Part shown: positions 22,596-46,136 of the stretch, piece after piece
Layout of the letters: the number at the start of each line of letters is the position of its first letter
Position numbering within the stretch: the stretch's first letter is position 1
Assembly (NCBI RefSeq): GCF_013003965.1
Contig: NZ_CP053069.1
Span: forward strand, 4,495,419 to 4,559,418
Reading direction: 5' to 3'
DNA from: Usitatibacter rugosus
GTDB taxonomy: Bacteria > Pseudomonadota > Gammaproteobacteria > Burkholderiales > Usitatibacteraceae
Length of the DNA: 64,000 nucleotides
Notes under the pieces: model-generated
The model's database searches: none
What the model was told of the DNA's origin: nothing
The model's input: only the letters and a program-made list of their open reading frames with translations
Program-made: the position numbers and the translations under genes

Positions 22596-25235
22596 TCACA
22601 CCCTCGGGGTGCCGGCCGCGACGCACAGGTCGATGCCCTCCAGGGCCTGCTCCAGGCGCCGCGGCCCGCCCACGAAGCGGGGGCTGCGGTCCTTGAAGAA
22701 CGCGGCCACCTGCGACCGGTCCTGCGGGGTGCACATACGGTCGAGGTGGCGGACGAGCTGGCCGGGCGTTTCCGGCGGGAGCTTCGCGGCGAGCGCGTCG
22801 AAGTTGTCGCGCAGGTAGGCGAAGGCGGCGCGGCGGTTGCCGTCGTCCTCGGTTGCGTCTTCGAGGAACAACAGTGCCTCGCGGCCGTTCATCACCTCCT
22901 GGCCGGAGCGCTTGTCGAGCGCGAGCCCGAGCGCCTTCGGGCGCAGGGCCGGGTCGCGCACCTTGGCGAGCGCGGAGACGATCTGGCGGCGGTCGCGAAG
23001 ATTCTGCGTGGTGGCCGCCTCGGCTTCGAAGGCCGCGTAGGTCCCGGCATCCGCGAAGCGCGCGGCCGTATCGAGGATGGGCGTGACCATCATCGCGTCA
23101 GCGCCGCTGCGATCGCGCAGCCATTGCCGCGCGAGGTCGCGCGCCTGTGCGCGGAGCGCCTCGTCCCCGGCATAGTCCGCGGCATACGGAAGCAGCACGA
23201 AGCGAAGCTCGCGCACCTCGTCGCTCTCGCCGGGCTTCTCGGTCCAGCCCATCTGGCGCGCGAGCGGCAGGACCACGTCGCGGTCGATCGCGGCGCGCGC
23301 GGCTTTCGCGCTTCCCGTCACGTGCTCGGGGTTCGTATTCTTCAGCGCTTCGACGGCGGCGCGGCGCACGCCCGGCGACTTGTGTGCGAGCGCTGCCTTG
23401 TAGACGGGAAGCACGCGATCGAGACCGATCACGCCGCTCCTCTGCATCAGCGAGGCATCGTTCACGTAGGGCACGGCCAGCGTGTCGGGCCAAGCGGCAA
23501 GCGCCGGGAGGTTTCGCTTCGCGAGCGCCGCGTCGGGACGCATCACGAAGTAGCCCGAATCCCATGCCACCCAGCGGGGGCACGCTTGCGCGGCGGGAAG
23601 CGCGATCGTGGCCTTGCCGTTCGCGACCTCCGCGCATTGCTTCTTCACCGATCCGCCCGCCTCGTACGCGAAGCAAGCCGGCGTGGTCCACGATGCATTC
23701 GAGGCGCGTGCGCCCTGGGGCTGGAACGCCGATTGCACGACGTCGAGGACCGCGGCGCCTTTTGCGTCGCAGCGCAGCACCGCGTCCATCATCGGCGCTC
23801 CGGGCTGGTTCACGAAGGTGGAGAACGCCGCGAGCGCCGCATCGCGCTTGTCGGCCGCGTCGCCGACCGCGCGGAAGAAGTCCTGCGAGGTGGCCGAGCC
23901 GTAGGCGCGTGCGGCCATGTACTCTCGCACGCCGTGGCGGAAGCGCTCGGGTGTCAGCCACCCCTCGAACATCGAGAGCACCTGCGCACCCTTGTCGTAC
24001 GTGAGGCGGTTGAACGACGCGTCGATGTCGCCCTTCTCCAGCACCGGGTTGTGCAGCGGGCGCGCGGTGGCCAGGCGATCGGCGAACAGCGAGCGGTTGC
24101 GGGTGACGTTGCGCGGGTAAGCGCTGCCCCACTCGGGGTTGAACGCGGTGACGGTCTTGTCGCCCATCCACGAGGCGAAGGATTCGTTCAGCCACGTGTC
24201 GTCCCACCACGCGAGCGTGACGAGGTTCCCGAACCACATGTGCGCGATCTCGTGCGCTCCGACCGCCGTATAGCGGCGCCGGAACGCGGGAGTCTCCTCG
24301 TTGGGCTTCGCGAGGAGCAGCGACTCGACATAGGTGATCATGCCGACGTTCTCCATCGCGCCGAAGTTGACGGCCTGGCCCACGGTCACCGTATCCAGCT
24401 TCTCGAACGGATAGGGCATGCCGAAGTAGTCCTCGAGGATCTCCAGGATCCGCGGCGTGGATTCCTTCACCCAGCGCATCTCGGCCCCGCGGCCCTTCGG
24501 CGCGAGGTAGCGAAGCGGTGTCTTGTTGCGGCCGGCCGTGCCGCCTTCGACCACGTCGAAGGGACCCACGGAGAGCGCGACGAGATAGGACGGCAGCGGC
24601 TTGGTCGCCGCGAACGCGTGGCGCTTCCATCCCGGGCGGCCGGGCGTGTCGGAAACACTCGTCTCGGGCGTATTGCTGACGACGACATTCGCGGCGGGCG
24701 CGTCGATCGTGAGTTGCCACGGCGTCTTCCAGCCCGGCTCGTCGAAGCAGGGGAATGCGAAGCGAGCGGAATCGGCCTCGAACTGCGAGACCACGTACCA
24801 GTCGCCGGCGCTCTTCTGGCGGAAGAGCCCGCGTGTGGAGAGCGCGTCGACGCTTCCGGTGTAGCGGATCGTCGCTTCCGCCTCGCCGGCCGCGAACGGC
24901 TCGCCCTTCGCTTCGAAGCCCACGAACTCGTTGCCGCCGGACGTCGAGGTCACGCCGATGGCGCGCGTGCCCTGGCGGAACTCCGCGGAGACGATCTCGA
25001 GCTTGCGGGCATGCATCCACACCATTGGCGTCGCGCGCCCGATGCGCATGCGAATCCGGATCTCGCCCTCGAAGCGTTCGGCATCGGGATCGATCGAGAG
25101 GCGCGCTTTGTAATCCAGGGGAATCGCCGCGTCGCCGAGGCGAAAAGCGGGCGGGGATTTGGGATCCACCGGCTGGGCCCCTGCGGCGAAGGAAAGCGCG
25201 AGGCCGAGGAGGCCGGCGAAGAGGAATTTTTGCAT
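22596..25235 (-). CDS. M1 family aminopeptidase, secreted
   Basis: 879 residues from the ATG at 25235, where a signal peptide begins (MQKFLFAGLLGLALSFAAGAQ). Exopeptidase motif GAMEN in NFGAMENVGMITY; zinc site HEIAHMWFGN with the third Glu in WLNESFASW, 18 residues on. The N-terminal beta-saddle domain is present (FPCFDEPGWKTPW), and the last 350 residues form a helical ERAP1-like C-terminal domain. Removes N-terminal amino acids from peptides, here presumably in the periplasm. Divergent from the unknown secreted pair at 25375-28605. Confidence 0.94.
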   Translation of the reverse strand: MQKFLFAGLLGLALSFAAGAQPVDPKSPPAFRLGDAAIPLDYKARLSIDPDAERFEGEIRIRMRIGRATPMVWMHARKLEIVSAEFRQGTRAIGVTSTSGGNEFVGFEAKGEPFAAGEAEATIRYTGSVDALSTRGLFRQKSAGDWYVVSQFEADSARFAFPCFDEPGWKTPWQLTIDAPAANVVVSNTPETSVSDTPGRPGWKRHAFAATKPLPSYLVALSVGPFDVVEGGTAGRNKTPLRYLAPKGRGAEMRWVKESTPRILEILEDYFGMPYPFEKLDTVTVGQAVNFGAMENVGMITYVESLLLAKPNEETPAFRRRYTAVGAHEIAHMWFGNLVTLAWWDDTWLNESFASWMGDKTVTAFNPEWGSAYPRNVTRNRSLFADRLATARPLHNPVLEKGDIDASFNRLTYDKGAQVLSMFEGWLTPERFRHGVREYMAARAYGSATSQDFFRAVGDAADKRDAALAAFSTFVNQPGAPMMDAVLRCDAKGAAVLDVVQSAFQPQGARASNASWTTPACFAYEAGGSVKKQCAEVANGKATIALPAAQACPRWVAWDSGYFVMRPDAALAKRNLPALAAWPDTLAVPYVNDASLMQRSGVIGLDRVLPVYKAALAHKSPGVRRAAVEALKNTNPEHVTGSAKAARAAIDRDVVLPLARQMGWTEKPGESDEVRELRFVLLPYAADYAGDEALRAQARDLARQWLRDRSGADAMMVTPILDTAARFADAGTYAAFEAEAATTQNLRDRRQIVSALAKVRDPALRPKALGLALDKRSGQEVMNGREALLFLEDATEDDGNRRAAFAYLRDNFDALAAKLPPETPGQLVRHLDRMCTPQDRSQVAAFFKDRSPRFVGGPRRLEQALEGIDLCVAAGTPRV

Positions 25236-25306
25236 GGGCGGCAGCTTACGCGAGCTTGCGGTCGCCGGACTACAGGGGGTCGGCAGGCGCTGACGCGAGG
25301 CGCGGC

Positions 25307-25345: not shown

Positions 25346-25374
25346 CAATGCACCGATGGTCGTCCGTGGTTCCC

Positions 25375-26931
25375 ATGCCTTTCTCCTCCCGATTCGTGCT
25401 CCTGCTCCTGCCTTGCTCGCTGCTTGCGGGCCTGGGCGCGCACGCGGAACCGAAGACGATCTGCACCATCACCGTGAACTCGCCCGACGAGTGGCAGGAG
25501 TTCCGCTCGCGCCTGCCGAAGGGCGAGTACAACTTCGTCGAGCTGATCGAGAAGGGCCGCCCGGATTGGCTGCGCTCGTCGTGCCAGCGCGGCGTGCAGT
25601 GCGACGTGCTCGTCGTGTCGGGACACTTCAACGCCGGCGAGACGTTTTATTCCGACAGCGTTTCGAAGGACGACCACCTGCGCGTGGATGAGCTGGAGCG
25701 CGCGTCGTGCAGCAACTCCTGCCCCGGGCTCTTCGCGAAGCTGAAGGAGGTCTACCTCTTCGGTTGCGAGAGCCTGAATCCCGACGCTTCGAAATACTCA
25801 TCGTCGTATGGCGAGAGTGGGCGCGACCGGATGCGGCGTGTCTTCGCCGGCGTCCCGTCCATTTACGGCTTCTCGGGCGCGGCCCCCGTGGGCCCGGTCG
25901 CCGCGAAGCTGATCGGCGGCTACTTCAAGGCGGGAGGCGCACCGATCGGCTCGGGCCACGCCAACTCGCGCTTCCTGTCCGCTTTCTCCAACAGCTCGAT
26001 GACGCGGACCTCCGGGGTCAGCGAAGCGGAGAGCGGCTACCGCAAGCAGGTCTGCCCGTACTACGACGAGCGGCTCACGCCCGCGCGCAAGCTCGAGATG
26101 GTCCATTCGACGATGAAGCGCGACATGGGAGAGACCAGGCGCTTCTTCGAGCGCATCGAGGCGCTCGTGGATTCGCTCACGCTGGAAGAGCGGCAGGATC
26201 CGGCGTTCGTGAAGGCCCTCGCAAGTCTCGCGTCCGACACCGCCGTGCGCGAACGCTACATCGCGATGGAGCGCGCCGAAGCGGTGGCCGGCCGCCGCGC
26301 CCGGATGGTCGTGCTCGCGAAGGAGATCGGATGGCTCCCGGAGCCTGCGTTCCGCAGCGAGATCGCGACGCTCGTTTCCGATCTGCTCGCTCGGCCCGCG
26401 ATGGGGTTCGCGGAAGTCGATCTCATCTGCTCGCTCAACGATGACGGCGAGTTGGATGGCTTGGTCAACGCCCCGCCGTCCATGGGCGTGATGCAGTCCG
26501 CCGCGGTTGCGTGCCTGGGCGATGCGAAGGCGCGGGCGCGGACGCTGCAGGCCCTCGCGAGCGACGACGAACGCGAGGTGCAGGGTGTGCAAACGTATCT
26601 GCGCTATCGGCCCATCGCCGATGCGGGCGAGCTGCGCGACGTGACACGCGTCGTGGCGCGCATGCCGGCCGGTGCCGCGAAGGTGCGCGCGCTGGATGCA
26701 CTGGGCCGCCTCAACATCACCGATGGCGACACGTTGCGCGAGCTGGTGCAGTCTTTCGCCGCCTCGACGTCGGCCTCCGTGCAGCGCGCGATCGCCGAGA
26801 TCTTCATCCGCTCCGATACAAAAGCAATCGCGCGGCCCGAGGTGGTGGCCGTCCTACAGAAAAATCGACTCACTTCGACGGGCGGCGACAAACTGATCGA
26901 CGCGGCCATACGCCGCTTGCAGGCATCCTGA
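25375..26931 (+). CDS. unrecognised secreted protein with caspase/CHAT-like His-Cys pattern and helical repeats (paralog 1)
   Basis: 518 residues from the ATG at 25375 (MPFSSRF, then a hydrophobic signal segment ending AHA; an in-frame ATG at 25348 adds nine). Family not recognised. Residues 25-150: a hydrophobic strand ending at a histidine (CDVLVVSGHF, H84) and, 47 residues on, one ending at a cysteine (EVYLFGCESL, C131). This is the order and spacing of caspase-fold (clan CD) dyads. Extra cysteines flank both (SSC, CSNSC). From about 230 the sequence looks like paired helices of HEAT-type repeats. The next gene is a clear paralog. The protease reading is inference; a non-catalytic alpha/beta domain is the alternative. 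Confidence 0.8.
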   Translation: MPFSSRFVLLLLPCSLLAGLGAHAEPKTICTITVNSPDEWQEFRSRLPKGEYNFVELIEKGRPDWLRSSCQRGVQCDVLVVSGHFNAGETFYSDSVSKDDHLRVDELERASCSNSCPGLFAKLKEVYLFGCESLNPDASKYSSSYGESGRDRMRRVFAGVPSIYGFSGAAPVGPVAAKLIGGYFKAGGAPIGSGHANSRFLSAFSNSSMTRTSGVSEAESGYRKQVCPYYDERLTPARKLEMVHSTMKRDMGETRRFFERIEALVDSLTLEERQDPAFVKALASLASDTAVRERYIAMERAEAVAGRRARMVVLAKEIGWLPEPAFRSEIATLVSDLLARPAMGFAEVDLICSLNDDGELDGLVNAPPSMGVMQSAAVACLGDAKARARTLQALASDDEREVQGVQTYLRYRPIADAGELRDVTRVVARMPAGAAKVRALDALGRLNITDGDTLRELVQSFAASTSASVQRAIAEIFIRSDTKAIARPEVVAVLQKNRLTSTGGDKLIDAAIRRLQAS

Positions 26932-26967
26932 GATATTCTCGTCGGGCCCACGAACACCGGCCCGTCG

Positions 26968-28605
26968 ATGCACCCAAGATGCAAGGCGGTCCTCGCGGCC
27001 GCGCTCTGCGCCGCCGCTGTAGGACACGCGAAAACAACCGTCTGCACCGTCACCGTCAACTCGCCCGACGAGCGTGACGCGTTCAAGGCCGCCCTGCCCG
27101 CGGACCAGTACGAGTTCGTCGAGCTCGTCGAACGAGGCCGTCCCGACTGGCTCGCCTCGTCGTGCAAGCGCAAGGTCTCGTGCGACGTGCTCGTCGTGTC
27201 GGGTCACTTCGCCGGCACCGAGTTCTATTCCTCCAAGCCGCAGGTGAACGAGACGCTGCCCGTCGACGAGCTGGAGCGCGTCACCTGCAGCGACACATGC
27301 CCCGACCTCTTCGCGAATTTGAAGGAGGTCTACCTCTTCGGCTGCGACACGCTGAAGAAGGACCCGGTGCGCAGCGCCACGCCGGAGATCATCCGCGGCC
27401 TGGTGAAGTCGGGCGTGCCGAAGCCCGAGGCCGAGCGCTTCGCGCAATCGCTCTCCGAACGCCATTCGGAGAACGCGCGCGACCGCATGCGCCGCGTCTT
27501 CCCCAACGTTCCCGTCATCTACGGATTCTCGTCGCTGGCGCCCTATGGCCGTGTCGCCGGTCCGATGCTCCAGGGCTATTTCAAGTCGGGCGTGCCCGAC
27601 GCGGTGGGCAGCGGCCGCGTGAGCAGCAAGCTGGTTTCGCTCTTCGCACCGGCGAGCATGATCGTCACCGACGGCCTGCGCGCGACGGATCCCAATGCGG
27701 ACTACCGCGCGCAATCGTGCCGTTACTACGATGACCGCCTCACCCAGGCGGACAAGCTGCGCGTGGCGCAGTCGGCGCTGGGCGGCACGCCGATCGAGAT
27801 GCGCATGGCGTTCGATCGCGTGGAAAAGTTCATCGGTGCGGTCACACCTGCCGATCGCCGCGATCCGCCGATGGCGAAGGCGCTGGCCGACCTCGCCGCC
27901 GACGGTGATTCCCGCGAGCGCTATCTCGCCGTCGAGCGCGATACCGAGGACCCCGCGCTTCGTATCCGCATGATCGCGCTGGCCCGAACCGTCGGCTGGC
28001 TGTCACCCCCGCAGCAAACCGCGGAGCTGGAGCTCATGATCCGCGACGTGCTCGCGGGCAACGCGCTCGGCTTCGGCGAGGTGGAGCTGATCTGCGGCCT
28101 CAACAAGGAGCGCGAGCTGGATGGCGCGCTCGCGCGAGTGGGAACGGCGAAGACGGGCACCGCCCAGGACGCCGCGCTCGCCTGCCTCGGAAGCCCGGAG
28201 CGCCGCACGCGCGTGATCCGCGCGGTGTCGAGCACGAACGAGAGCGATGTGCAGATCGCCCAGGCCTACCTGCGCCACCGCCCGATCACGGATGACGCGG
28301 AGCTGCGCGCCCTGACAGACGGCATCGTGAAGATGAAGGTGGCCAACGCACAGGTGCGGGCGCTCGAAGTGCTGGCGCGCCACCGCGTGTCGGACATCGC
28401 GATCCTCGATGAGCTCACGCGCCTCTACGCGGCGACCCGCTCGCCCGGCGTGCAGGGCGCGATCGCCGAGATCTTCATCCGCTCGAACGTGACGGCTGCC
28501 TCGATGCCGAAGCTGGCACCGGTCCTCCGGGAGCACCACATCCGCACCCCGGGTGCCGGACAGGATCTCGTAAGCCTCCTGCTCGCCAAGCTCTCCGGCG
28601 CGTAG
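26968..28605 (+). CDS. unrecognised secreted protein with caspase/CHAT-like His-Cys pattern and helical repeats (paralog 2)
   Basis: 545 residues with a signal peptide (MHPRCKAVLAAALCAAAVGHA). It starts 36 bases after paralog 1 and matches it along its whole length. Shared blocks are VNSPDE, GRPDWL, SSC-x-R-x-V-x-CDVLVVSGHF, VDELER, KEVYLFGC and RDRMRRVF. Putative dyad H80 and C126 (FGCDTL). It carries about 25 extra residues after the cysteine block (ATPEIIRGLVKSGVPKPEAE) that paralog 1 lacks. C-terminal helical repeats with acidic turns (RYLAVERDTEDPALRIRMI). Tandem duplication is evident. Function unknown, as for paralog 1. Confidence 0.82.
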   Translation: MHPRCKAVLAAALCAAAVGHAKTTVCTVTVNSPDERDAFKAALPADQYEFVELVERGRPDWLASSCKRKVSCDVLVVSGHFAGTEFYSSKPQVNETLPVDELERVTCSDTCPDLFANLKEVYLFGCDTLKKDPVRSATPEIIRGLVKSGVPKPEAERFAQSLSERHSENARDRMRRVFPNVPVIYGFSSLAPYGRVAGPMLQGYFKSGVPDAVGSGRVSSKLVSLFAPASMIVTDGLRATDPNADYRAQSCRYYDDRLTQADKLRVAQSALGGTPIEMRMAFDRVEKFIGAVTPADRRDPPMAKALADLAADGDSRERYLAVERDTEDPALRIRMIALARTVGWLSPPQQTAELELMIRDVLAGNALGFGEVELICGLNKERELDGALARVGTAKTGTAQDAALACLGSPERRTRVIRAVSSTNESDVQIAQAYLRHRPITDDAELRALTDGIVKMKVANAQVRALEVLARHRVSDIAILDELTRLYAATRSPGVQGAIAEIFIRSNVTAASMPKLAPVLREHHIRTPGAGQDLVSLLLAKLSGA

Positions 28606-28611
28606 CCCGCG

Positions 28612-28866
28612 CTACTTCGTCGTCCAGCCGGCGATGTCGTCCAGCCCCACCTTGAAGTCCTGGTTCTTCGGCAGGTTGGCCGCGTTCAGCTCATCCTCGG
28701 CCGTGAAGAACGACGCGGAGAGCTTGAAGGCGACGCGCGCGAGGGCGGCCGGGTCGGACTTGATCTCCGCGCTGGTCGCGGTGAGCTGCAGCGCCTTCGA
28801 AACGAGGTCGCGATAGATGTTCTGGGCGAGGTCGCGAACCCTCGGATCGAATGCGGGGGCGGTCAT
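28612..28866 (-). CDS. small hypothetical protein
   Basis: 84 residues, not recognised. Mostly helical, with no signal peptide or membrane segment (DPRVRDLAQNIYRDLVSKALQLTA; AALARVAFKLSASFFTAEDEL), ending GLDDIAGWTTK. It looks like a soluble cytoplasmic protein. Convergent with paralog 2 (6 bases between the stop codons) and divergent from aapJ. Codon use matches the genome, and the opposite strand offers no better frame. Confidence 0.65.
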   Translation of the reverse strand: MTAPAFDPRVRDLAQNIYRDLVSKALQLTATSAEIKSDPAALARVAFKLSASFFTAEDELNAANLPKNQDFKVGLDDIAGWTTK

Positions 28867-42651: not shown

Positions 42652-45600
42652 TCACGAGGCGCCGTAGAGGACGTACGGCGCCCAATGCCTCGGGGATGAC
42701 CACGGCCCTTTGGAGCGGGCGAACTCGAGTTTGGTTTCCCTCAGGGCCTCGGAAGGGGACTTGCCCGCCTTGAGGCGCTTGTAGAAGCGCGGCATGAAGT
42801 CGGCGGCGCTTTCGTCGGCGACGCTCCAGAGGGTGAGGACGACAGCGCGCGCGCCGGCAGCCAGGATGGCGCTGGGAAGGCCCACGACGCCCTCCCCGGC
42901 GACGAGACTTCCCAGGCCCGTGTCGCACGCGGAGAAGACGACCAGGTCGCTTCTCAGGCGATAGGTGGCCCATTCGGCCGCGGTGACGATTCCATCGCCT
43001 CCGCCGTTGCCGGACCCGGAAAGCACGACCCCCGAAAGACTCCCGCCGCGGCTCGAGAGAAATGCGTGCGTCGCAAAGTGAACGAACCGATACCGTCGAA
43101 GCTCTCCGCTCGCGTCCAGCGCCCGGAGCAGCTCTTCGTTCGCTGCAACACCGGCCAATACGCGAGACGCCGGAAAGAGCGAGCCGATCGCACGGATCTC
43201 GGCTTCAGCGCGGGGCAAGTCGGCCCAGGTGCTCCCTGGACTACGGAACTGCGAGACACCGACGCCGAGAAAATCCAGGCGCGGACTGGTGGTCACGCGA
43301 GCGGGCATGATCGCGAGCGAGGCGAGCGACGGTGCGTAGACGACATCCTTGGACTCGAGAACGGTCTGCCGGCCGAGCGCGAGGGCCTCGAACGGAAGGA
43401 AGGCAAGCGCGCCGTCTGGAGAGATGATCCAGGTTCTCGCCGACCGGATCTCGGGCGCCAAAGGCTCCAGCAGGCGTGCGGAAAGAGTGCGGCGCACGCT
43501 GTCCAGGTCCTTCAACCGCGTCGCGCCCTTGGGCTGCGCCAATGCCCAGCGTGCACTGCCATCGGGCAGCTGCCAGATGCGTTCGGACGCCGGTTCCGGC
43601 GACATCGAGAGCCGCCGAAAGACTTCGACGGTCTCCGCGAGGCCCGCGATCGTGCCCAGGTCCTTGGCGACAACGCGTGCCTGCGCGTTCATGGTGATCG
43701 CCGTCACCTGGTCACCCGAAACGATGAATTCCACGAAGACCGATCCGGGTGCGAGGACGCGCTTCCACATCGCTCGCGTGTCGATCGACGAGGCCCTGCG
43801 CATCACGGGATCGAACGCCTGGCGCAGTTCCTCTTCGGCGCGCGTCCTGTCCGACACCGCTCGAAGATAAGGCGCCGATCCGACGTCGAGCTCGCCCACC
43901 CGCTGCTCGGCCTGCGCGAACCGAAGCCGCGCGTCGCGAACCTTCGCGCTATCCGCATGGGGTCGCGCGAGGATCTCGTTCAGCGAACGTGCCCGCGCAA
44001 GCTCCGCGATCTCGAGTGCACGTTCCGGATCCCGGAGCGCCAACAGCCGGGCATAGGTTCGATATCCCGCCATGTCAGGGCGGTCGCGGACACCCTGCGC
44101 CAGGCGGCCTCGATTCGCGGCACTCGTCGACACACCCGCGCGGATCAGCCCTTCGTTGATCTCGACGAACTGCGCGAGGAGCTCTTGCGCTTCGTCCTTG
44201 TTCCCCGAGTTGACCTGCATCTGCGCCAGCAGCGCCATGAAGTTGAGCGTCGTCACGTGACTCGATCCGAATCGCTCTCGGCAGCCCTGGTACAACACAT
44301 CCATGGAACGCCTCGCCAAGGCCTCGTCTCCGGATGCGAACTGGGCTCGGGCCCAGCCCGCACCCACTTCCAGCTGCCTCCGAGTCACGCTGCGAACCTC
44401 GTCGGCGGTGAACGTCCGTCCTCCGAGCTTCGTGAACGATTCCAGCGATCGCGCGGGCTCGCCAAGGCGCAGAAGCGCTTCCGCGCGGATCACGAGCAGC
44501 CCCGATTCGACGGACTCGACCCGGTTCGATCCGGCGGGCATCTGCGCCATCGCATCGTCGATAACCTCCAGTGCTTCCGCCGGACGATCGAGCACGAGGA
44601 GCGCGAAGGCCTGGTTGCGCGCGGCACTCGCAGTCTCCGCATGTGCCGCACCGAGGAGACGCGCACGCCTAGCGCGGACGTCGGAATACAGAGGCAACGA
44701 ATCCTCGCTGCGGCCGAGTCGATCGTAGATCACACCGAGAAGTGTCTTGATCCGGAGGGTTTGCACGTCGTCCTCGCCGAGCACCTCGAGGAACGTGGGC
44801 AAGGAGCCCGCCACGAGAGGCAGGGCCTCGTCGATCCGGCCGGCTTCCGTGAGCGCAATGCCCAGGTCATGCGTCGCCACGAGCGTGGCGGGATTCTTAT
44901 CCCCGAGCGTGGATCTCCGCGCCTGCAGGATCTCGGATTGGAGCGCCACGACGCGCTCGTAGTCCCCGCGTTGTTGCAGGCTCGCGGAGAGATTGGCCTT
45001 TACGCGCAGCGCGTCCGAACCACCGGCTCCTTGGCGAGCGACCTGGGAGCGAACGAGCACTTCCTGGATCGCGATGGCATCGTCGACCTGGCCCATCGAC
45101 TGATGTGCGATCGCCAGCGTCTCCTGGCTCGCGAGCGTGTCCGGATGGCTCGGACCCAGCAAGCGCAAGCGGCCTTCGTACGCGATCCGTGCCGCTTCGC
45201 GCATCTCCGCGGGGCGGCTGAGGAAGAAGAGGGCCCGGGCTTGCGCTTGTCGCGCGTTGAAGATTTCCGCCAGAGACGCTGTGTTGGGCGCCTTCCAAAG
45301 CGAGGCGAGCGCGATCTCGCTCAGAGCGAGACCGAGGTCCGCCCTCGATGCGGCGGTGGCGCGGCGGGCGTGGAGGATGTCGCACTCCGCAACGAGGGGA
45401 GCATCGTTGCCGAGGGCGGTGCGGCGCGCGTCGCACGCGCTCTTGGCGGCGGCGAGGGCCGCAGTTGCATCGCGTGCAGAGACGGCGCGATCGATCTCGA
45501 GGATCGACGTTCTCGCCTCCTGAAGCTTGGCGCTGCGGGCCGCGAACTCCCGCGCCTGATCCGTGCTCAGCTCCCTCGACGGACCCAGTATCGTTTCAGC

Positions 45601-45921
45601 TGCACAACGCTCACCCGCAATGCGGACCGTCCAGCTCGCCGAATCGAAAGCGGGCGCTTGCAGCTTAAGCCTCTCCGTTTCGGTCCGGACTTCCTTGTCG
45701 CGTTCGAACGCCAATCCCCCGATGTCGATCGACTCGCTGCCCGGCGCACCCGATACGATCGCGACGGTTGCGGCCTGGAGGATCGCGGGGCATGTTGCTT
45801 CGATTCGCGACCAGGCAAGTGGCGCGATCAGCTCCGCGCGAGCGCCGGTGGCGAGAGCGGCGATGGCGACGATTCGGACAAGCGCCTTCGAAGAAGCCAA
45901 TGGTATAAAGGACCCGCCCAT
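42652..45921 (-). CDS. secreted TPR-CHAT protein (caspase-like protease candidate)
   Basis: 1089 residues from the ATG at 45921; an upstream TTG is possible. A signal peptide is seen (SSKALVRIVAIAALATGARA). Residues about 240-600 are kinesin-light-chain-type TPR repeats (LLGPSHPDTLASQETLAIAH; LGDKNPATLVATHDLGIAL; LGEDDVQTLRIKTLLGVIY). The C-terminal 340 residues are a CHAT domain with catalytic H952 (VHFATHAFLSS) and C999 (VVFSACDTGLG), GVVGLPSAILAAGARAVVLT, and the terminal HWAPYVLYG. CHAT proteins are clan CD proteases, some activated by sensor partners. It starts 23 bases from a divergent small gene and ends 12 bases before glmS. The periplasmic location is inferred from the signal peptide. 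Confidence 0.93.
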   Translation of the reverse strand: MGGSFIPLASSKALVRIVAIAALATGARAELIAPLAWSRIEATCPAILQAATVAIVSGAPGSESIDIGGLAFERDKEVRTETERLKLQAPAFDSASWTVRIAGERCAAETILGPSRELSTDQAREFAARSAKLQEARTSILEIDRAVSARDATAALAAAKSACDARRTALGNDAPLVAECDILHARRATAASRADLGLALSEIALASLWKAPNTASLAEIFNARQAQARALFFLSRPAEMREAARIAYEGRLRLLGPSHPDTLASQETLAIAHQSMGQVDDAIAIQEVLVRSQVARQGAGGSDALRVKANLSASLQQRGDYERVVALQSEILQARRSTLGDKNPATLVATHDLGIALTEAGRIDEALPLVAGSLPTFLEVLGEDDVQTLRIKTLLGVIYDRLGRSEDSLPLYSDVRARRARLLGAAHAETASAARNQAFALLVLDRPAEALEVIDDAMAQMPAGSNRVESVESGLLVIRAEALLRLGEPARSLESFTKLGGRTFTADEVRSVTRRQLEVGAGWARAQFASGDEALARRSMDVLYQGCRERFGSSHVTTLNFMALLAQMQVNSGNKDEAQELLAQFVEINEGLIRAGVSTSAANRGRLAQGVRDRPDMAGYRTYARLLALRDPERALEIAELARARSLNEILARPHADSAKVRDARLRFAQAEQRVGELDVGSAPYLRAVSDRTRAEEELRQAFDPVMRRASSIDTRAMWKRVLAPGSVFVEFIVSGDQVTAITMNAQARVVAKDLGTIAGLAETVEVFRRLSMSPEPASERIWQLPDGSARWALAQPKGATRLKDLDSVRRTLSARLLEPLAPEIRSARTWIISPDGALAFLPFEALALGRQTVLESKDVVYAPSLASLAIMPARVTTSPRLDFLGVGVSQFRSPGSTWADLPRAEAEIRAIGSLFPASRVLAGVAANEELLRALDASGELRRYRFVHFATHAFLSSRGGSLSGVVLSGSGNGGGDGIVTAAEWATYRLRSDLVVFSACDTGLGSLVAGEGVVGLPSAILAAGARAVVLTLWSVADESAADFMPRFYKRLKAGKSPSEALRETKLEFARSKGPWSSPRHWAPYVLYGAS

Positions 45922-45944
45922 GGAGGCGCAAAGGGAGACAAGGG
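45904..45944 (+). promoter_or_regulatory. candidate -10 and ribosome site for the 63-residue protein
   Basis: TATAAA at 45904-45909 is the only AT-rich hexamer near; no convincing -35 is found. AAGGGAGACAAGGG directly before the ATG at 45945 is a good ribosome site. The signals lie inside the 5' end of the divergent CHAT gene, so the two genes' promoters must overlap. Confidence 0.35.
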
Positions 45945-46136
45945 ATGGCAACCAAGAAGAAGGTTACCAAAGGCAAGAAAAGCACCGGAAAGGTCCTGCG
46001 TAAGTCGATCACGGTACCCAGCGGGACGAACGAGATCGTCCTGACCATTCACATCGGCAAGGGTGGGACCGGCAAGAGCACCGTGATGATGCTCGCGTCG
46101 AGCGAGAGCCCGATCCAGCCGGATCCGCCGGAGTGA
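45945..46136 (+). CDS. 63-residue Lys-rich protein with deviant Walker-A-like motif
   Basis: Not recognised. The N-terminus is strongly basic (MATKKKVTKGKKSTGKVLRK). A beta-rich part follows (SITVPSGTNEIVLTIHI), then GKGGTGKST, which matches the deviant Walker A of ParA/MinD ATPases, and an acidic Pro-rich end (SPIQPDPPE). It is too short for a P-loop NTPase. Third codon positions are mostly G/C like the genome, and the ribosome site is good, so I take it as a real gene. Divergent from the CHAT gene (23 bases) and convergent with the FecR gene (7 bases). It may be a partner or substrate of the CHAT protein, but it has no signal peptide. Confidence 0.7.
   Translation: MATKKKVTKGKKSTGKVLRKSITVPSGTNEIVLTIHIGKGGTGKSTVMMLASSESPIQPDPPE

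Follow-up and report, generated by a model that had tools for sequence, protein, structure and literature searches.

The window analysed here is a 64,000-nucleotide stretch of the genome of Usitatibacter rugosus (4.56 Mb, single contig; NZ_CP053069.1, positions 4,495,419 to 4,559,418). At positions 25375-28605, it carries two tandem genes on the forward strand that are separated by 36 bp and whose products, P1 (copy A) and P2 (copy B), are 45% identical over 529 alignment columns (Table 1). An in-frame ATG at 25348 is a possible alternative start for P1. An earlier reading of the letters of this DNA (hereafter the sequence-only reading) had described the two products as tandem secreted paralogues with a caspase- or CHAT-like His-Cys dyad and helical repeats, and both open reading frames (ORFs) are indeed present at this locus. 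The pair probably represents a new family of exported caspase-fold proteases.

Conservation was assessed over 97 distinct full-length relatives, almost all of which come from contigs and metagenome-assembled genomes (MAGs) of Burkholderiales; the alignment contained 81 sequences (P1 and 80 relatives). Signal peptides were called with a simple hydropathy and AxA rule rather than with SignalP. By this rule, a strongly hydrophobic N-terminal stretch is found in 96/97 full-length homologues and is followed by an AxA-like motif in 94/97, in agreement with the signal peptides that had been proposed for both proteins. Each protein has an SGH motif (residues 82-84 of P1 and 78-80 of P2) and a GC(E/D)(S/T)L motif (with the Cys at 131 and 126, respectively), and the dyad residues are 47 apart in P1 (H84-C131) and 46 apart in P2 (H80-C126), as originally described. 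The His and the Cys are invariant in the full-length homologues (97/97), such that the conservation check suggested by the sequence-only reading found none lacking either residue, and they are also kept in two distant members (L070 and L071; G, C and L numbers are our handles for genomes, contigs and loci) and in the short cousins discussed below. Given this invariance, the motif pattern is more than chance. The four further cysteines that had been noted around the dyad are shared as well (residues 70, 76, 112 and 116 of P1 and 66, 72, 107 and 111 of P2), and C30, C227, C352 and C380 of P1 are likewise common to both copies. Invariant positions beyond the dyad include C30, C76, C112, C227, C352, C380, E56, W65, YGF 164-166 and AP 170-171, and two near-invariant acidic residues (D38 and E39) stand at the start of alpha1. 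C70 and C116 are missing together from exactly the same 8/81 sequences, which are scattered over several branches of the tree, a co-loss that fits a disulphide in an exported protein. Together with the N-terminal signals, these cysteine pairs support the predicted export of P1 and P2.

The AlphaFold2 model of P1, built from the alignment with its 80 relatives, has a mean predicted local distance difference test score (pLDDT) of 90.2 and a predicted template modelling score (pTM) of 0.84. Because a Foldseek search with the full-length model was swamped by solenoids, the N-terminal domain was also folded alone, using that of P2 (27028-27789; pLDDT 87.3, pTM 0.84); the two models were built on overlapping alignments. 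In P1, residues 27-212 are modelled as beta1 (27-33), alpha1 (38-46), beta2 (52-56), alpha2 (65-71) and beta3 (78-82), followed by H84, a small beta extension, alpha3 (104-112) and beta4 (125-129), and then by C131, alpha4 (149-156), beta5 (162-166), alpha5 (174-185) and beta6 (209-212). Both predicted models have the element order beta1-alpha1-beta2-alpha2-beta3(H)-alpha3-beta4(C)-alpha4-beta5-alpha5-beta6, which is that of caspases and comprises the six core strands and five core helices of clan CD. In the clan CD core, beta3 has the catalytic His at its C-terminal end, and beta4 has the Cys at the corresponding place (PMC4357240). The predicted models place the P1 and P2 residues in the same way (in the numbering of the P2 domain model, beta3 at 54-58 precedes H60 and beta4 at 100-104 precedes C106). 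The YGF motif closes beta5, and its F166 (97/97) fits, by position only, the aromatic residue that the clan has on L5 after beta5.

The isolated P2 domain was compared with known structures using VIA-align, for which the best 50 matches were listed. All 50 are clan CD or related cysteine-protease folds, with no unrelated fold among them, and they cover 143-196 aligned residues with Z scores of 7.6-10.4. The top match is SAVED-CHAT (8tl0_C, Z 10.4, 161 aligned residues, 3.4 Å); others include legumain (7fql_E, Z 9.0), procaspase-6 (4nbn_B, Z 8.8), clostripain of family C11 (9cip_B, Z 8.4), a glycosylphosphatidylinositol (GPI) transamidase complex (7wld_K, Z 8.3), caspase-7 (Z 8.3), the type VI secretion system (T6SS) effector Tce1 (Z 8.2), caspase-8 (Z 8.0), caspase-3 (Z 7.9) and a secreted Bacteroides C11 protease (6n9j_A, Z 7.8). 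With the full P1 model, residues 23-213 matched SAVED-CHAT (8tl0_D, Z 11.2, 161 aligned residues, 3.5 Å) and residues 24-214 matched legumain (4awb_B, Z 9.5, 164 aligned residues, 3.5 Å). A Z score near 8 is modest when taken alone; what gives this model-based comparison its weight is how uniform the list is and how far its top matches stand out. Neither gingipain nor separase was among the VIA-align matches listed, and the BFVD viral library returned mostly repeat and unnamed proteins, with no caspase-like match among those listed. The structure prediction and fold comparison that the sequence-only reading had called for gave a predicted caspase strand succession and matches to CHAT, caspases and legumain.

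Profile comparison points in the same direction. When the new domain was aligned to the CHAT profile with hhalign, the two dyads were in register, His with His and Cys with Cys, in an alignment of 54 columns (score 25.7, E-value: 0.007, one comparison); column-shuffled profiles gave a mean score of 14.2 and a maximum of 20.3, with 0/60 as high as the real one. The closest known sequence profile thus appears to be that of CHAT. Alignment to the single CHAT sequence encoded in the window gave no signal. Scattered matches to DUF1133, XdhC_C, L27 and beta-lactamase, which came from one or a few members, were dismissed. A weak class-level match (L144, E-value: 0.006) spans columns 141-241, outside the dyad region.

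The C-terminal half of P1 (residues 216-518) is modelled as stacked helices that match the PP2A A subunit, SF3B1 and other solenoids in VIA-align with Z scores of 9-11, values that are common among helical repeats. A HEAT solenoid is recognised by antiparallel helix pairs that stack on one another and by a match to a HEAT profile; the pairs are present in the model, and the profile match is weak, with Pfam HEAT_2 found in 4/81 members (best E-value: 7.6e-5). The earlier suggestion of HEAT-like C-terminal halves agrees with these results.

One claim of the sequence-only reading was reversed, namely that the second copy has gained an extra loop after the cysteine. This loop is present in 80/81 aligned homologues, and the sole form without it is copy A of the window's genus, which has lost 26 residues; a gain by the second copy was rejected on these grounds. 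The post-Cys loop is ancestral. The order of looped and loopless copies in the window is reversed with respect to two relatives of the same genus (G001 and G003, loci L010 and L011).

A related group of shorter proteins was also identified. L071 (genome G304) and four proteins of G1130 and G1131, which belong to the same bacterial family, are about 280-330 amino acids (aa) long, look secreted and lack the HEAT-like tail; their motif is SGHH...(L/F)GC(D/E)T, which in G1130 and G1131 reads SGHH...LLGC(D/E)TG. In hhalign, the short-cousin profile aligns to the new domain dyad on dyad (97.4% probability), and it aligns to CHAT in the same way. For L071, Pfam gave no match. The short proteins also occur in tandem (G1130 contig C38, L149 and L167; G1131 contig C127, L150 and L166). 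Counting the long proteins, there are thus at least two related and unnamed subfamilies of predicted exported proteins.

Among loci long enough to show pairing, nearly all have two adjacent copies, which usually share their direction and are separated by 5-400 bp (in G281, by about 610 bp). The exceptions are a locus with three copies (L023, 7857-13104), a convergent pair (L041) and a single copy on a long contig (L050). In Comamonadaceae and Sphaerotilaceae, the first and second copies form two groups with a support of 100, pointing to one old duplication of which both products were kept. The six sequences from the genus of the window cluster by themselves (support 99) and fall into two subgroups (99 and 99), which points to a separate duplication or to homogenisation. 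From this tree, the family appears to have been duplicated more than once. Both copies are under purifying selection, with ratios of nonsynonymous to synonymous substitution (dN/dS) of 0.04-0.23 in close comparisons. A conserved operon partner was sought, and the most widespread neighbour family occurs in only 7/60 loci and looks like a common superfamily; a conserved third gene was rejected on this basis. As no other neighbour is conserved, the pair itself is the unit. Distribution is patchy: members were found in 3/6 genomes of the genus, 5/399 of the order (one of these being a distant short form) and 2/398 of a phylum sample, with no relatives in the phage, plasmid or viral collections searched. 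The carriers are soil and freshwater bacteria, nearly always with the genes as a pair.

Several loci deserve separate mention. Contig C43 of G1176 has three matches in a row (18048, 19787 and 21514). At L062:7980-9209, on a contig labelled as a Bordetella parapertussis MAG, one copy is split into two ORFs and appears to be a broken gene; as all other members are from environmental Burkholderiales, this label may be wrong. At L060:6158-7808 and L059:729-2350, a frameshift or an assembly error has apparently split the first copy across frames; its neighbour is either intact or truncated by nothing but the end of the contig.

Table 1. Predicted features of the paired genes, in window coordinates
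Feature	Position	Strand	Basis
Copy A (P1), 518 aa secreted caspase-fold and HEAT-like protein, loopless form	25375..26931	+	ORF; 45% identity to P2; homologues; AlphaFold2 pLDDT 90.2
P1 predicted Sec signal peptide, residues 1-24 (...GAHAE/PK or GAHA/EPK)	25375..25446	+	Hydropathy and AxA rule
P1 caspase-like domain, residues 25-215	25447..26019	+	AlphaFold2; VIA-align to 8tl0_D and 4awb_B
P1 H84, predicted catalytic His, just after beta3 (SGH)	25624..25626	+	97/97 conserved; DSSP
P1 C131, predicted nucleophile, just after beta4 (LFGC)	25765..25767	+	97/97 conserved; DSSP
P1 helical HEAT/ARM-like solenoid, residues 216-518	26020..26928	+	AlphaFold2; PP2A A subunit and other matches; HEAT_2 in 4/81
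Copy B (P2), 545 aa, paralogue that retains the ancestral loop	26968..28605	+	ORF; tree
P2 predicted signal peptide, residues 1-21 (...AVGHA/KTT)	26968..27030	+	Hydropathy and AxA rule
P2 caspase-like domain, about residues 22-239	27031..27684	+	AlphaFold2 of 27028-27789, pLDDT 87.3; 50 VIA-align matches
P2 H80, predicted catalytic His	27205..27207	+	Alignment with P1
P2 C126, predicted nucleophile	27343..27345	+	Alignment with P1
26-residue segment of P2 post-Cys loop, helical in the model, lacking in P1	27364..27441	+	Alignment; 80/81 homologues; model
P2 helical HEAT-like C-terminal half, about residues 240-545	27685..28602	+	Alignment to P1 only

The pair is flanked by a divergent M1 aminopeptidase gene (22596-25244, reverse strand; Peptidase_M1 and ERAP1_C), which is not kept as a neighbour elsewhere, and by a convergent 84-aa ORF (28612-28866, reverse strand) without a Pfam match.

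Based on the predicted fold, the invariant dyad and the N-terminal signals, we consider it likely that P1 and P2 are periplasmic or extracellular cysteine endopeptidases of clan CD, belonging to a new family whose modelled fold is nearest to those of CHAT and legumain. Several observations weigh against this assignment. Scans of both proteins and 81 homologues against Pfam, NCBIfam, PHROGs and PADLOC gave no match above cut-off for the N-terminal domain: none of the 81 members scores above the Pfam gathering score for CHAT (PF12770) or C14 (PF00656), and hmmscan of all members gave no match to Pfam C11, C13, C25, C50 or C80. A sequence profile search of the PDB gave 0 matches, hhalign against C14 gave no signal (6/60 shuffles as high), and Foldseek E-values are weak (6.7e-4 at best). 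Finally, all clan CD families have a Gly adjacent to the catalytic His (PMC4357240), and in the clan it usually follows the His, which here is followed by F, Y or H. The residue preceding the His, a possible counterpart of the clan Gly, is Gly in 79/81 sequences (Ala in 2). The absence of the N-terminal domain from Pfam, NCBIfam, PADLOC and PDB sequence families, combined with the caspase-like predicted fold, agrees with the earlier proposal of an undescribed clan CD family, and no paper describing it was found in the literature searched, from which most subscription journals are absent. Since Pfam and NCBIfam lack the family, its members are likely annotated as hypothetical proteins.

Four other explanations were weighed. 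The domain might be a generic three-layer alpha/beta fold (Rossmann or flavodoxin-like) outside clan CD, with its dyad resemblance due to chance, and Foldseek does rank, with weak E-values, some response regulators and further proteins of alpha/beta type. We regard this as very unlikely, since the best 50 VIA-align matches are all clan CD or related cysteine-protease folds, the P1 and P2 models agree, and the invariant dyad residues lie just after beta3 and beta4. There is a small chance that the fold is correct and the domain is a catalytically dead scaffold that binds a ligand or partner while the solenoid does the rest. Pseudo-orthocaspases exist in bacteria (PMC6426788), and the missing Gly after the His would suit such a protein, yet some drift would then be expected in a dyad that is instead invariant in both paralogue groups and in the short cousins, and selection on both copies is purifying.

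An exported transpeptidase or transamidase that joins or processes surface proteins, similar to legumain ligase or GPI transamidase, is just as improbable as a dead scaffold. The proteins are predicted to be exported, and legumain and the GPI transamidase complex are among the structural matches (Z 9.0 and 8.3), but no conserved neighbour could serve as substrate or sorting partner and no sequence feature favours ligation over hydrolysis. The remaining explanation concerns role rather than chemistry and is compatible with a clan CD endopeptidase: the pair might be an interbacterial or anti-eukaryotic effector or conflict protein instead of a housekeeping protease of the periplasm. Patchy distribution, repeated duplication and the presence among the fold matches of Tce1, a putative T6SS cysteine protease (PMC13323088), would suit such a role. 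We nonetheless think it unlikely, as the signal is of the standard Sec type, T6SS, RHS and polymorphic-toxin architectures are lacking, no immunity-like or secretion neighbour is conserved, no relative was found in the phage, plasmid and viral collections, and PADLOC gave no match.

If P1 and P2 are exported endopeptidases, C131 or C126 would attack the peptide bond with H84 or H80 acting as a base, and disulphides (C70-C116 and probably others) would stabilise the domain outside the cytoplasm. The HEAT-like solenoid could dock a substrate or partner. Immediately behind the nucleophile, the helical loop lies at the position of the activation linker of caspases, and it may therefore gate the active site and control access to it. 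The two paralogues might act together, either by forming a heterodimer or because one of them processes its partner. The S1 pocket of clan CD proteases is set by alpha1/L1, L4 and L5 (PMC4357240). From D38 and E39, a basic residue might be preferred at the substrate P1 position, which is a weak guess; these residues recall the acidic alpha1 residue of MALT1. More speculatively, the genes might form an autonomous two-gene exported module, in which two paralogous caspase-fold proteases need to be neighbours in the genome and act outside the cytoplasm as a heteromer or as activator and effector, an arrangement that would have arisen repeatedly, in the long HEAT form and in the short form. We consider this doubtful; if true, bacteria would possess a caspase-like proteolytic relay that is extracytoplasmic.

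Clan CD proteases drive cell death and immunity as well as the processing of surface proteins, and the bacterial enzymes that have been studied are mostly either cytosolic (CHAT and orthocaspases) or secreted for digestion or virulence (clostripain and gingipain). P1 and P2 probably form a new family within this known clan, and they offer a tractable case for asking what a caspase-like protease does in the Gram-negative envelope and why it needs a partner.

Among known systems, CHAT (PF12770; SAVED-CHAT and TPR-CHAT/Csx29) is the best structural match (8tl0, Z 10.4-11.2), with the same predicted fold and a dyad in register in the profile alignment. An alpha-solenoid joined to the protease is also found in TPR-CHAT (PMC10028731). 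The window itself encodes a TPR-CHAT protein (42652-45951, reverse strand; PF12770, E-value: 4e-63) with an alpha-solenoid. Its dyad residues, H962 and C1009 in a 1099-aa ORF, are 47 apart, which fits the H952 and C999 given by the sequence-only reading if the start is taken ten codons later; the dyad His is followed by Ala (ATHAF), not Gly. Unlike CHAT, the new family is predicted to be exported, has disulphide-like cysteines and a C-terminal, HEAT-like solenoid, occurs in tandem pairs, and lacks both the CHAT Pfam match and any link to CRISPR or other defence genes.

Legumain (C13) is the second best fold match (Z 9.0-9.5), and the GPI transamidase is found in the same match list. Both are secretory-pathway enzymes, and legumain also ligates; in contrast, the new family is bacterial, with a HEAT-like tail, no legumain-type prodomain and no detected sequence similarity. 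Caspases, metacaspases and orthocaspases (C14) match the fold with Z 7.6-8.8 and have the His/Cys dyad after beta3 and beta4, and their intersubunit linker occupies the position of the post-Cys loop. The new family differs from them in its SGH[FYH] motif (SGHG/SHG in C14), in its predicted export and in giving no C14 profile signal while CHAT aligns. The genome of the window has three separate C14 matches. Two C11 proteases match the fold (clostripain 9cip_B, Z 8.4; the secreted Bacteroides protein 6n9j_A, Z 7.8). Clostripain and gingipain (C25) are likewise exported bacterial clan CD proteases; they differ from the new family in their accessory domains and give no Pfam match to it. Separase (C50) also combines a helical solenoid with a clan CD protease domain; its solenoid is N-terminal, in contrast to the C-terminal solenoid of P1 and P2.

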